Below are positions 24,963 through 32,832 of a DNA stretch of 38,286 nucleotides, piece by piece. Both the position numbers and the translations under genes were made by a program. Under the pieces are notes generated by a model, which made no database searches, was not told the origin of the DNA, and saw only the letters and a program-made list of their open reading frames with translations. Within the stretch, counting starts at the first letter, position 1; each line of letters begins with the position of its first letter. The stretch is taken from contig JAABSU010000004.1 in the NCBI GenBank assembly GCA_011390265.1, positions 1 through 38,286 on the forward strand. The letters are read 5' to 3'. This DNA comes from Spirulina sp. GTDB taxonomy: Bacteria > Cyanobacteriota > Cyanobacteriia > Cyanobacteriales > Spirulinaceae.

Positions 24963-25150
24963 GGGAAATTACCAATAAAAAAAGCGGGCTAGACCCACTT
25001 CTGCAAAGACAGTTTGATCTTGACAGGGGCGAAGTCCCCAAAAATTTGGGCACTTCTCTCCTCCATCATAATGGACAGGTTGTTTTTGTGGCAATTCGAC
25101 AGGCCCTGCTCTCAAGAGACGGGAATTTTTAAAACCCTTAACCCTAATGG

Positions 25151-26446
25151 ATGATGAGTGATTTTGATTTGGTGATTCGCGGCGGGGGCCTCTGGCTGGC
25201 TCCGCTGGGGGGCGATGGGTACGCTAACGCGGATCGCTCCCCGGTGATGGATGTGGGGATTCGGGGCGATCGCCTCGTGGCCATTGCGCCCCAACTCCCC
25301 GGTACAGGCCGGGTGGAAATTGATGCGGGCGGGAAATTAGTCTCCCCTCCCTTTGTGGAATCCCATATTCATCTCGATTCGGCCCTGACGGCGGGCCAGC
25401 CGAGGGTGAATGAGAGTGGGACGCTGTTTGAGGGGATCCAAATTTGGGCGGAGCGTAAGCCCTCGTTAACGGTAGAGGATGTGGAGGAGCGGGCGATCGC
25501 CACACTCAAAACCCAAGCCCAGCAAGGGGTACTCTATGTCCGCAGTCATGTGGATGTCAGTGAACCCAACTTGACGGCCCTCAGAGCTTTGTTAGCGGTT
25601 CGGGAAGCCGTGCAGGACTGGATCACGCTCCAGATCCTCGCCTTCCCCCAGGATGGCCTCTACGGCGATCCTCGCAATGCGGAACTTTATCAGGAGGCGA
25701 TCTCCCTAGGGGTAGATGTGTTAGGTGGCATCCCCCACTACGAGTTAACCCGCGAAGCGGGCGTGCAGTCCGTCGAGCAAATTTTTAATTGGGCGGTGCA
25801 AAAAGACCGACTGATCGACCTCCATTGTGATGAAATCGACGATCCCCAATCCCGATTTTTAGAAGTGATGGCCGCCTGCGCCATCCGCCACGACATCGGC
25901 CCCCGTGCCACCGCCAGCCACACCACCGCCTTCGGCTCCTATGAAAACGGCTACGCCAACAAACTGATGGGCTTTCTCCAACGGGCCAAGCTCAATTTCA
26001 TCGCCAACCCCCTGATTAACATCACGCTCCAAGGCCGCACCGACACCTACCCGAAACGGCGGGGGATTACGCGGGTCAAGGAGCTATGGCAAGGGGGTTT
26101 AAACGTCAGCTTGGGCCATGACTGCATTCAAGATCCTTGGTACAGCCTTGGCACGGGGAATATGCTCGATGTGGCCAGTATGGCGATCCATTGCTGCCAC
26201 ATGACCGGCCAGCAAGAAATGGTCGCCTGCTACGACATGATCACCTATGGGGGAGCGCAGACGCTCCAACTCCAAAATTATGGTTTGGCGGTGGGGAATC
26301 CTGCGGATCTGATCATTCTCGATGCCGCCGATCCCATAGCAGCCCTCCGCCAACGGGCCACAATTACCACCGTGATCCGCAGGGGCAAAATTCTCGCTGA
26401 AACGCAACCCGCCGTTACGGCTTGGCATGGCATCCCAATCCCCTAG
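25151..26446 (+). CDS. Cytosine-deaminase-like amidohydrolase
   Basis: 'PFVESHIHLDSALT', 'YVRSHVDVSEPNLTAL', 'IDLHCDEIDDPQSRFLEVMA', 'ATASHTTAF', 'VSLGHDCIQDPWYSLGTGNML'. Confidence 0.9.
   Translation: MMSDFDLVIRGGGLWLAPLGGDGYANADRSPVMDVGIRGDRLVAIAPQLPGTGRVEIDAGGKLVSPPFVESHIHLDSALTAGQPRVNESGTLFEGIQIWAERKPSLTVEDVEERAIATLKTQAQQGVLYVRSHVDVSEPNLTALRALLAVREAVQDWITLQILAFPQDGLYGDPRNAELYQEAISLGVDVLGGIPHYELTREAGVQSVEQIFNWAVQKDRLIDLHCDEIDDPQSRFLEVMAACAIRHDIGPRATASHTTAFGSYENGYANKLMGFLQRAKLNFIANPLINITLQGRTDTYPKRRGITRVKELWQGGLNVSLGHDCIQDPWYSLGTGNMLDVASMAIHCCHMTGQQEMVACYDMITYGGAQTLQLQNYGLAVGNPADLIILDAADPIAALRQRATITTVIRRGKILAETQPAVTAWHGIPIP
25211..25241. repeat. In-CDS copy of the GRCGATRGRTACGCTAAYGCGGATCGCYCC repeat
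   Basis: GGCGATGGGTACGCTAACGCGGATCGCTCCC matches 33076-33106 at 26 of 31 positions; encodes 'GDGYANADRS'. Confidence 0.7.
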
Positions 26447-26525
26447 AAGAACATACAGCCTTTACTTTGACGATTGGCTATAGTTTTCTCATTACTTTAA
26501 ACCATTAACAGTTATTAATTGCATC

Positions 26526-27713
26526 ATGATTCGCCAGGTTGAAATTCGAGGCTTTAAGTCTATTTATCATGCCACCCTTGAACTCGGTCGCGTTAACAGC
26601 TTCATTGGAGCTAATGGTGTTGGTAAAAGCAATCTACTCGAAGCATTGGGTGTGTTGGGGGCAGCAGCCAACGGCGTAGTTGATGATGAAAGTCTTTTGC
26701 GGCGGGGCGTTCGGGCGGGGTTGCCTCGGTTGTATAAAAGCTCTTTCGCATCCGATCGCACTCCGCCCCATATCACGATTGAGGCGACCAGTTCGGCCAA
26801 TGCTGTTTACCGCGTTTCCTTATTGAATCCAATTGAATCACCCGAACCTGCTTGGTCTTATAAAACTGAGGTTCTTCACGACGGAGAAATAGATATTATT
26901 TCTGATGGGGTTCGCAATAAGAAAAACCTGAATGCTCAAGCAGGACTTGCTGCTTTACAGTTAGTGAACTTGACAACTGATAACCCTGCTGCACAACTGA
27001 TGCAAAGACTCCAGGAGTTTGCAATTTATTGCCCGAATACCCCCACATTGCGCGGCATTTTACCCGACCAGCAATCTCGTTCGCCCGTTGGCTTGAGTGG
27101 TGGACAGTTAGCCGGTGGGTTCGCTACATTGCGGCAACATTTGGAATCCCAAGGAGAGCAAGGTGAAGCTGTTTTGGAGCAAGTGCTAGAACTGATTGAT
27201 TGGGTTGCTGACATTGAAACCACCAGCTACGGGGCTAACCTGCTCTCGCCTAAAGTGCCACGAACTAAGCAAATTTTGAAATTTAGCGATCGCTTCATGC
27301 AAAAAAGCCGCAACGAACTCACGGCCTATGATGCCAGTGAAGGTGCACTCTATGTGTTGTTCACCGCGCTGCTGTGCCTCCTGCATCAAGCACCTAAAAT
27401 ACTGGCGATTGATAACCTGGATCAGGCTCTCAATCCCCGCTTACTCCAGGCGTTGATCGCTCGGATCGCAGCTTGGCTAGAATACAATGCCCCAGACCGA
27501 CAACTTCTGTTCACCGTCCATAACCCCGCCGCTTTGGATGGTTTAGATCTAGCTGATCCTGAAGTGCGCCTATTTGCCGTAGAACGCAACAGCAAGGGGC
27601 AAACCGTGATCAATCGCCTCACCCTCACGCCCCAACTGATGGCACTCAATCCACAGTATCCCCTCTCTCGTTTGTGGCTGATGGGACATTTAGGAGCTGT
27701 GCCCAATGTCTGA
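26526..27713 (+). CDS. AAA_21/AAA_15 (RecF/OLD-like) ATPase, component A of a candidate two-gene system
   Basis: Walker A 'GANGVGKSN', 'ASEGALYVLFTALL' signature-like helix, Walker-B-like 'KILAIDNLDQALNPR', switch 'LLFTVHNPAAL'. Confidence 0.88.
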   Translation: MIRQVEIRGFKSIYHATLELGRVNSFIGANGVGKSNLLEALGVLGAAANGVVDDESLLRRGVRAGLPRLYKSSFASDRTPPHITIEATSSANAVYRVSLLNPIESPEPAWSYKTEVLHDGEIDIISDGVRNKKNLNAQAGLAALQLVNLTTDNPAAQLMQRLQEFAIYCPNTPTLRGILPDQQSRSPVGLSGGQLAGGFATLRQHLESQGEQGEAVLEQVLELIDWVADIETTSYGANLLSPKVPRTKQILKFSDRFMQKSRNELTAYDASEGALYVLFTALLCLLHQAPKILAIDNLDQALNPRLLQALIARIAAWLEYNAPDRQLLFTVHNPAALDGLDLADPEVRLFAVERNSKGQTVINRLTLTPQLMALNPQYPLSRLWLMGHLGAVPNV

Positions 27714-28416
27714 AGAATTACGCATTGCGCTCATCGCTGAGGGGCCGACGGATTACGAAGTGATTCAAGCCGCCCTCAAAGCCATTTTATCCAACCCTTT
27801 CATTCTGATCCCATTGCAACCAGAATCCACTCAGCCAAGGCTGGGAGGGGGTTGGAGTGGCGTACTGAAATGGTGCTACGAAGCCCATCAGCGGCACAGC
27901 GGCCCATTGCACGAAGATCCCACTTTGGTCAGCTTTGATCTGCTCATCATCCATGTTGATGCCGATGTCGCCTGTAAGCAGTATTCAGACTGTGGTAACA
28001 CCGTCGAAACTTGGGCGCAGGAAAACGCTTGGCAAAAACTCCCCTGTGTGATGCCCTGTCCACCCGTGTCTGATACGGTGGATGCTTTAGGAGAAGTCGT
28101 CAAAAGTTGGCTAAGACCAGTAGAATTGGGCGATCGCTCCCTCCTGTGCCTACCTGCTCAATCTTCAGGAACCTGGTTAGCGGCCGCTCTGCTGAATCTG
28201 AATCATCCACTGCTTGCCCAAGTTGAATGCAATCCTCATGTGGAGTCAAGGTTGGCAGGGCTATCCAAAGCGCAACGCATTAAGAAAACGCTAAGAGAGT
28301 ACCGGACTCATGCCCCAAAGATTACCCAACAATGGCAACAGGTCAAGCAAATCTGTTCCCAAGCAGAACAATTTGAGTCCATGATTTTGAGCATTGGCGA
28401 TCGCCCCACCCCTTAG
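27706..28416 (+). CDS. TOPRIM/DUF4276-like protein, component B of the candidate two-gene system
   Basis: 'RIALIAEGPTDYEVIQAAL' (Glu motif) and 'FDLLIIHVDADVACK' (DxD motif); ATG overlaps the ATPase stop by 8 nt. Confidence 0.75.
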   Translation: MSEELRIALIAEGPTDYEVIQAALKAILSNPFILIPLQPESTQPRLGGGWSGVLKWCYEAHQRHSGPLHEDPTLVSFDLLIIHVDADVACKQYSDCGNTVETWAQENAWQKLPCVMPCPPVSDTVDALGEVVKSWLRPVELGDRSLLCLPAQSSGTWLAAALLNLNHPLLAQVECNPHVESRLAGLSKAQRIKKTLREYRTHAPKITQQWQQVKQICSQAEQFESMILSIGDRPTP

Positions 28417-28428
28417 ATGGAAAGCTCT

Positions 28429-31126: not shown

Positions 31127-31849
31127 TCAGTTCCACGAATATTTGATTGGGTTTGCGGCCCCTCTCTTACGATACTCATCAGGAATCTTTTTTCCTACAT
31201 ATTCTTGTTGTATTTCAAGAGGTGCTTCTCTCCCAACAAAGCCATATCGGCCTTCGATAGTCTCTCTACCGGGGAAGTTATCAATGGTAGCAGGCAACCA
31301 TTTTTCAGCAGTGAATGCCCCAACAATCATTCCTTGCACAGTCGCTAATATAAGTTCTGCTTGCTCTGCCTTATTCATGTTCAGTCTCCATGCAAACCTT
31401 GTCGCCTCATAGAGCGATCCCTCCAACGCACTTCTATTCACACTTATCAAAATAACTCGGTGCCTAAACTCGGCTGTTTCAGCGAGGTATCTTTTTATGA
31501 TCTCCTCCGCGTGCATCACACCAAATTCACTATTTCCATGCCCGTCAGCGATATTCGACAAGCCCGGATAGGCATCTATCAAGGCTGCTTCGACCTCTAA
31601 CGCTGTTGTTTCGTCCATCCCATGGCGGTGTATGACGTGTGCTACATCAAATCCTGCAACCTGAATAGCTCTAATTCGTTTCATTTTCTCACTTAGATTG
31701 TCACCCTCAATTTCCCCCGCAGCATGGGAAAAAACGCGGTTTCCTTTCCCTTTACCAACGTAAAATGTCTCTCCATTCCGTGGATCGATCAGTCGATAAA
31801 CATAATATTGCAGTTTTTCTATGATTTCTGGTTTAAATTTTGAGACCAT
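31127..31849 (-). CDS. GIY-YIG nuclease domain protein (LEM-3-like/COG3680-like)
   Basis: 'YYVYRLIDPRNGETFYVGKGKGNRVFSHA'. Confidence 0.85.
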   Translation of the reverse strand: MVSKFKPEIIEKLQYYVYRLIDPRNGETFYVGKGKGNRVFSHAAGEIEGDNLSEKMKRIRAIQVAGFDVAHVIHRHGMDETTALEVEAALIDAYPGLSNIADGHGNSEFGVMHAEEIIKRYLAETAEFRHRVILISVNRSALEGSLYEATRFAWRLNMNKAEQAELILATVQGMIVGAFTAEKWLPATIDNFPGRETIEGRYGFVGREAPLEIQQEYVGKKIPDEYRKRGAANPIKYSWN

Positions 31850-32131: not shown

Positions 32132-32455
32132 TTAGGCACAAGAAACAGTCTGAACTTTGATATCTACACGCAACTCTTTACGAAGGACATTGAGAATAGT
32201 AGTTAGGTTATCCATTGTAGGATTACCTTTTGCAGATAACATCCGGTGAAGACTTTTGCTTGGTTTAGATGTTTCAATAGCCAGCTCCTCAAAGCCTACG
32301 GTTGCATTTACAAGATCTCTTAATATGAGTCTTGCAGTTTCTGGTTCACCGTTGAGGAAAAGAGAAACAGCTTCATCAAGTAGAGCTGCTGCAAATTCAG
32401 GATCTCGTTGAACTCGCGCATTAATTGTTTCTTTGAAGTCTCTTGTTAATGCCAT
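32132..32455 (-). CDS. HigA-like antitoxin (HTH)
   Basis: 'LVNATVGFEELAIETSKPSKSLHRMLSAKGNPTMDNLTTILNVLRKEL'. Confidence 0.8.
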   Translation of the reverse strand: MALTRDFKETINARVQRDPEFAAALLDEAVSLFLNGEPETARLILRDLVNATVGFEELAIETSKPSKSLHRMLSAKGNPTMDNLTTILNVLRKELRVDIKVQTVSCA

Positions 32456-32460
32456 GATCT

Positions 32461-32832
32461 TTACCTCTTCTTTCTTTTCTTGCTTTTAGTTTCTTCTTGT
32501 GTCGCTGTTTTACTAGCCTTTTTCTTTCGTCTTTTATATTCTTGGTACAGTTCTCTAGCTTGCTTAATATCTGACTCCTGACCTTTTTTAGTGCCACCTC
32601 AAAATAGGACAATGAGCTGTTTACCATCTTGAGCCAAGTAAATCCGATACCCTGGCCCCCAATTAATTTTGTACTCGCCGATTCCATCGAACCACTTGAT
32701 GCTGGATGTGTTACCTAGCTCTAGACGAGACTTAGCCACTGCCACCTTTGCAGCGGCTCTAGCATCCAGACTATCGAACCATTTCTGATAAGGATTTGAG
32801 TCATCTTCTCTAATGTATTCCTGGACTTTCAT
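32461..32832 (-). pseudogene. HigB/RelE-like toxin interrupted by an in-frame TGA (32599-32601)
   Basis: 'MKVQEYIREDDSNPYQKWFDSLDARAAAKV…YRIYLAQDGKQLIVLF*GGTKKGQESDIKQARELYQEYKRRKKK…*'; frame stays open for 45 codons after the TGA. Confidence 0.8.

Follow-up and report, generated by a model that had tools for sequence, protein, structure and literature searches.

A mobile gene pair of the candidate anti-phage family PDC-M31 encodes an ABC ATPase without the Walker-B glutamate and a likely TOPRIM-type partner

The Spirulina sp. DNA analysed here (38,286 nucleotides in its entirety, hereafter the window) carries a two-gene operon which, judged by profile matches to both of its proteins, is a member of PDC-M31, a candidate anti-phage family already catalogued in PADLOC-DB. 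We favor, with moderate confidence, the view that M31 is a mobile operonic two-protein anti-phage system, probably abortive, in which the ATPase M31A would restrain the TOPRIM-type nuclease M31B until a trigger is received. The one feature that in our opinion merits specialist attention is the loss of the Walker-B glutamate throughout the M31A family, which is described here for the first time. The following features are referred to below:

25096-28428, no strand assigned: segment comprising a cytosine-deaminase-like amidohydrolase gene, M31A and M31B, missing at the same site in the same-genus genome G787
25151-26446, + strand: cytosine-deaminase-like amidohydrolase, sharing the variable rimP-fdx gap with the M31 pair
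26447-26525, + strand: AT-rich leader (30% GC), probable promoter region
26526-27713, + strand: M31A open reading frame, 395 aa
27706-27713, + strand: 8-nt overlap of the M31A stop with the M31B start
27706-28416, + strand: M31B open reading frame, 236 aa
28424-28439, + strand: terminator-like hairpin followed by a T-run, 3' of M31B
31127-31849, - strand: PD-T4-3 (GIY-YIG), a full-length defence gene that is not part of the module (PADLOC PDLC04031, E 1.4e-117; Pfam LEM-3 GIY-YIG)
32132-32832, - strand: RelE/ParE-type toxin (TIGR02683, E 1e-14) with an antidote-like gene downstream (TIGR02684, E 0.004)

Both reading frames and their overlap were found exactly where the first-pass annotation had placed them, and the genome holds a single M31 copy. 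The overlap probably couples translation of the two genes. The leader, also pointed out earlier as AT-richer, is indeed low in GC compared with the window as a whole (53.6%), and it contains no match to the sigma-70 consensus. The hairpin behind M31B resembles a terminator, with such sites occurring at chance frequency in the surrounding region.

The first-pass annotation had considered that membership in a named family could not be decided. The pair can in fact be assigned: M31A matches PADLOC PDC-M31A with an E-value of 4.4e-193 (1-395 of 395) and M31B matches PDC-M31B with an E-value of 5.1e-105 (1-229 of 233). The PDC class reportedly originates from a 2024 preprint by Payne et al., in which a guilt-by-embedding approach was used. 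PMC12988326 describes PDCs as putative candidates that were identified by guilt-by-embedding and are unpublished, and two other PADLOC candidates, PDC-M63 and PDC-S04, were inactive when tested in a native host (PMC12409345), so that the label alone is weak. A literature search yielded no paper naming PDC-M31 or DUF4276 and no wet-lab evidence for any PDC-M31. The window pair resembles PDC-M31 over the full or nearly full length of both proteins, embedding in restriction-modification operons was seen independently in its relatives, and no difference from the family was found, the Walker-B change being common to all members sampled. Because the family is already listed, the locus, though genuine, is an unexceptional representative of a class of candidates.

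To assess how widely the pair occurs, we searched 386 cyanobacterial and 399 proteobacterial genomes as well as GTDB contigs, plasmids and phage records. The distribution is sporadic, with matches in 11 cyanobacterial and 11 proteobacterial genomes; no close relative was found in viral contigs, and the Enterobacter copy has no DNA relative in E. coli genomes. A comparison of both proteins was feasible for 24 pairs, whose sources were cyanobacteria, proteobacteria, one plasmid and one gut scaffold. M31A lies directly upstream of M31B in every pair, with a spacing between an 8-nt overlap and a 3-nt gap in 23 and a 23-nt gap in the remaining one. Moreover, the pairwise distances of the two proteins are strongly correlated (r = 0.94; none of 9999 permutations gave as high a value). 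Several copies lie among housekeeping genes and the ABC head of M31A resembles RecF, RecN and SMC, as would be expected of an ATPase/nuclease pair that serves DNA repair or housekeeping and takes no part in conflict; however, given the sporadic distribution, the differing sites within one genus and the absence of the pair from most family relatives searched, we regard that explanation as very unlikely.

Comparison with same-genus genomes showed that the pair is mobile. The rimP-side homology is separated from the fdx-side homology by 17 bp in G787 and by 3.3 kb in the window; rimP in G787 directly adjoins the ferredoxin gene, behind which the TPR gene follows at once. The 4.4-kb block between the ferredoxin and TPR genes of the window, which includes PD-T4-3 and the toxin-antitoxin pair, is likewise missing at this site, and M31B was found nowhere in G787, the genome being 81% complete. 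In G788, the pair occupies a different site, beside a gene that by eye resembles ubiD. The deaminase-like gene shares the variable gap of the window pair, and its close homologues (64-72% identity) sit elsewhere in other family members; it is thus not a fixed partner of M31. Decayed copies were also encountered: in G066 (L029:9117-9824) M31B carries a premature stop and M31A remains open, and in G286 (L030:8980-9263) only fragments of both genes persist. No flanking repeats marking an element boundary were recognized. The empty site, the alternative site and the decayed copies together indicate that the pair is accessory and easily lost. The broken M31B next to an open M31A is what one would expect if M31B were the costly component, and this, together with the translationally coupled arrangement and the presence of one copy on a conjugative plasmid, fits a toxin-antitoxin-like or island-maintenance module in which M31A restrains M31B and loss of the island frees it. 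However, a single loss of this kind is weak evidence, the ABC architecture of M31A is common to immune ATPases, and some copies cluster with defence genes; we consider such a module quite improbable.

M31B is likely a DUF4276-like protein of the TOPRIM type and a putative metal-dependent nuclease. Both hallmarks recognized in the first reading, IAEGPTD (E12, D16) and LLIIHVDADVA (D85, D87), are present, and the four acidic residues are invariant across 24 members, as are C57 and W157; the motifs are therefore not a product of chance. The glutamate that had been put forward for mutation, E98, has to be replaced by E12, position 98 having no conserved Glu. In the AlphaFold2 model (16 homologues; pLDDT 86, pTM 0.86), the N-terminal part consists of a strand (5-10) followed by E12, a helix (14-27), a strand (32-38) and a helix (49-63), and the later part of a strand (79-83) followed by D85 and D87, a helix (121-136) and a strand (145-148). 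This order of elements and the placement of the acidic residues, with an invariant Glu after strand 1 and an invariant DxD after strand 3, are those of TOPRIM domains. Profile-profile comparison connected M31B to DUF4276 (score 74.7, E 1e-10, 200 columns), compared with a maximum score of 16.7 in 100 column-shuffled controls, and gave no significant match to RloB or OLD-TOPRIM; that to DUF4435 was also not significant, in a weak comparison because the DUF4435 alignment comprised only 5 sequences. We take DUF4276 to be grouped with the TOPRIM domains. The window protein itself matches neither Pfam DUF4276 nor any other Pfam family, and weak Pfam DUF4276 matches were obtained for 4 of 18 members (best E 0.0055). 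Single-sequence searches of Pfam, NCBIfam and PDB, and a profile search of PDB, returned nothing useful. A Foldseek search of the model against PDB and BFVD gave no match, TOPRIM or other, at an E-value of 0.001; the insignificant top ranks were UDP-glucose dehydrogenases in PDB and giant-virus proteins on the viral side, and the highest probability among the BFVD hits listed, 0.84, belonged to an RloB-like protein and was likewise insignificant. Thus, among the families initially proposed for comparison, DUF4276 was matched and RloB, DUF4435 and AriB were not, and the TOPRIM fold, which found no significant structural counterpart, appears likely from the motifs, the predicted topology and the DUF4276 match.

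As M31B would be a distant DUF4276 protein, the nearest relative of the pair is the HEC-01 type, in which an ATPase is likewise followed by a DUF4276-type protein. M31A matches HEC-01A with an E-value of 3.4e-25, far below its match to the M31A model, and M31B matches HEC-01B with an E-value of 0.004 over 23 residues only; direct HMM comparison of M31B with HEC-01B and Pfam DUF4276 did not place the pair in HEC-01. The two types differ in that M31B stays below Pfam DUF4276 significance and in that the ATPases found beside DUF4276 retain the Walker-B Glu. More broadly, ATPases related to M31A adjoin 28 of 30 DUF4276, 15 of 15 RloB and 2 of 5 DUF4435 loci sampled, so that M31 can be viewed as one lineage in a large class of ATPase plus TOPRIM systems; in PADLOC, one of the DUF4276 proteins at these loci matches HEC-01B and one of the RloB proteins matches AbiLii.

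The parallel with PARIS drawn in the first reading holds at the level of this broad class but not for the second protein, which matches no AriB, RloB or DUF4435 model. PARIS also consists of a split ABC ATPase and a TOPRIM-type protein, and AbiL of an ATPase and a small TOPRIM-like partner; M31A matches AriA with an E-value of 1e-17, more weakly than the M31A and HEC-01A models, and AbiLi, also weakly, with an E-value of 1e-19. Furthermore, three copies are embedded in type I restriction-modification operons or border on them, where guarding restriction would make sense. M31 could accordingly be imagined as a divergent PARIS or AbiL in which detection of an anti-restriction protein, for instance Ocr, makes the ATPase set free a nuclease of the DUF4435 or RloB type. 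M31B, however, has no match to AriB or AbiLii even at an E-value of 1, none of the profiles tested relates it to AriB/DUF4435, profile-profile similarity is significant for DUF4276 rather than for DUF4435 or RloB, and the Walker-B Glu is retained in the ATPases beside RloB and DUF4435. We hold this explanation to be unlikely; as a matter of family membership it is disfavored, and both PARIS and AbiL were rejected on the M31B partner. Gabija and OLD nucleases likewise combine an ABC ATPase with TOPRIM, and GajA (BcGajA), a functional relative, is reported to lack ATP hydrolysis and to be subject to inhibition by nucleotides (PMC10568477); in these, however, a single chain carries both domains, and Gabija has the GajB helicase in addition. 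Membership was rejected on gene layout, as M31 comprises two separate reading frames and no helicase lies next to the window pair.

M31A is an OLD/RecF/SMC-type ABC ATPase. The motifs listed in the first-pass annotation were all recovered, namely the Walker A motif GANGVGKS (residues 28-35), the signature DASEGALY (269-276, with SEG at 271-273) and the switch TVHNP (330-334), which contains the H-loop His332. The protein matches Pfam AAA_21 (E 8e-20) and AAA_15, and its model (pLDDT 82) shows an ABC head with the retron/Septu PtuA ATPases and the SMC and RecN heads as best PDB matches. The Walker B motif reads IDNLD, with Asn297 where the catalytic Glu is expected. Among the 24 M31A proteins, this position is Asn in 23 and Ser in one, and the Walker-A Lys and H-loop His are fully conserved. 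In contrast, Glu was found at the corresponding position in 45 of 45 comparator ABC ATPases, gene neighbors of DUF4276 (29, one of which, L061, resembles an ordinary ABC transporter), RloB (14) and DUF4435 (2), and in 7 of 7 OLD proteins with a readable Walker B. The comparators were added onto the existing M31A alignment, and since their Glu falls in clear DE or EE motifs, we consider the register safe. In ABC ATPases generally, loss of the Walker-B Glu slows or stops hydrolysis and ATP binding persists. The substitution thus predicts that M31A works not by rapid hydrolysis but by being occupied by ATP and changing its conformation, and we infer from the sequence that it may serve as an ATP-occupancy sensor restraining M31B, although a substitute catalytic base elsewhere, for example the near-invariant D299, may stand in.

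Under the favored two-protein anti-phage reading, a dimer of M31A would bind ATP and keep M31B inactive in a complex. A trigger caused by the phage, which might be nucleotide loss, inhibition of a neighboring restriction system or the binding of a phage protein to M31A, would free or activate M31B, whose E12/D85/D87 site would bind Mg2+ and cleave nucleic acid, possibly host tRNA or DNA, and so stop the infected cell. In a more specific and rather speculative version, to which we give clearly less credence, ATP or dATP occupancy would itself be the signal because M31A permanently lacks the Walker-B Glu: an ATP-locked clamp would hold the nuclease off until sprung by a phage that depletes the nucleotide or disturbs a neighboring restriction complex, and M31 would stand beside PARIS and HEC-01 as their hydrolysis-free counterpart. 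A candidate immune ABC ATPase family without its catalytic glutamate is a testable oddity, and, if confirmed, M31 would bear, as a further case, on whether immune ATPases of the OLD type act as motors or sense nucleotide occupancy, the latter having been suggested for GajA. PDC-M31 itself gains a DUF4276/HEC-01 relative, conserved candidate catalytic residues, a repeated association with type I restriction-modification in separate genomes and a CBASS neighbor on a plasmid.

The neighboring toxin and nuclease genes remarked on in the first reading proved to be real, PD-T4-3 lying 2.7 kb downstream of the window pair. A recognized defence system stands beside M31 in 6 of the 24 pair loci, as a plain count, whereas the remaining loci mostly have ordinary gene neighbors. 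The split ATPase/TOPRIM-type defence module originally proposed is well supported by the pairing, the mobility, the defence neighbors and the PADLOC match, the sensor and effector roles and the anti-phage activity being putative. On a conjugative Enterobacter plasmid (L010), the pair adjoins a complete CBASS gene set (SAVED effector, cyclase, E1-E2 and JAB), and in L032 it abuts a long CRISPR-type repeat array with a 60-nt period. Type I restriction-modification genes, confirmed by Pfam, surround or adjoin the pair (AB) in three loci, arranged as hsdM-hsdS-AB-ATPase-hsdR in Hydrogenophaga (L008), hsdM-XisH-AB-hsdR in Elainella (L041) and hsdR-hsdM-hsdS-AB in L039. The position between hsdM or hsdS and hsdR in the former two, and the adjacency in L039, would also suit an accessory or regulatory component that belongs to type I restriction-modification, is engaged in DNA-end or conflict processing and occurs alone as well; however, most copies, including that of the window, have no adjoining hsd gene and one lies beside CBASS, which makes this a doubtful interpretation that we do not expect to hold.

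Additional genes were observed next to some pairs. On an unannotated gut scaffold (L011:483-4256), a 1257-aa protein with HD-CE and an HSP90-like ATPase, which has no PADLOC match, is encoded directly upstream of an M31-like pair and is a possible defence partner. The 397-aa protein encoded between M31B and hsdR in Hydrogenophaga (L008:8860-10053) belongs to no Pfam or PADLOC family, shows an ATPase-like P-loop by eye and is possibly a further embedded gene. Finally, in Elainella, XisH, identified by Pfam, and a gene that by eye is XisI-like (L041:7631-8371) separate the M31 pair from the hsd genes.
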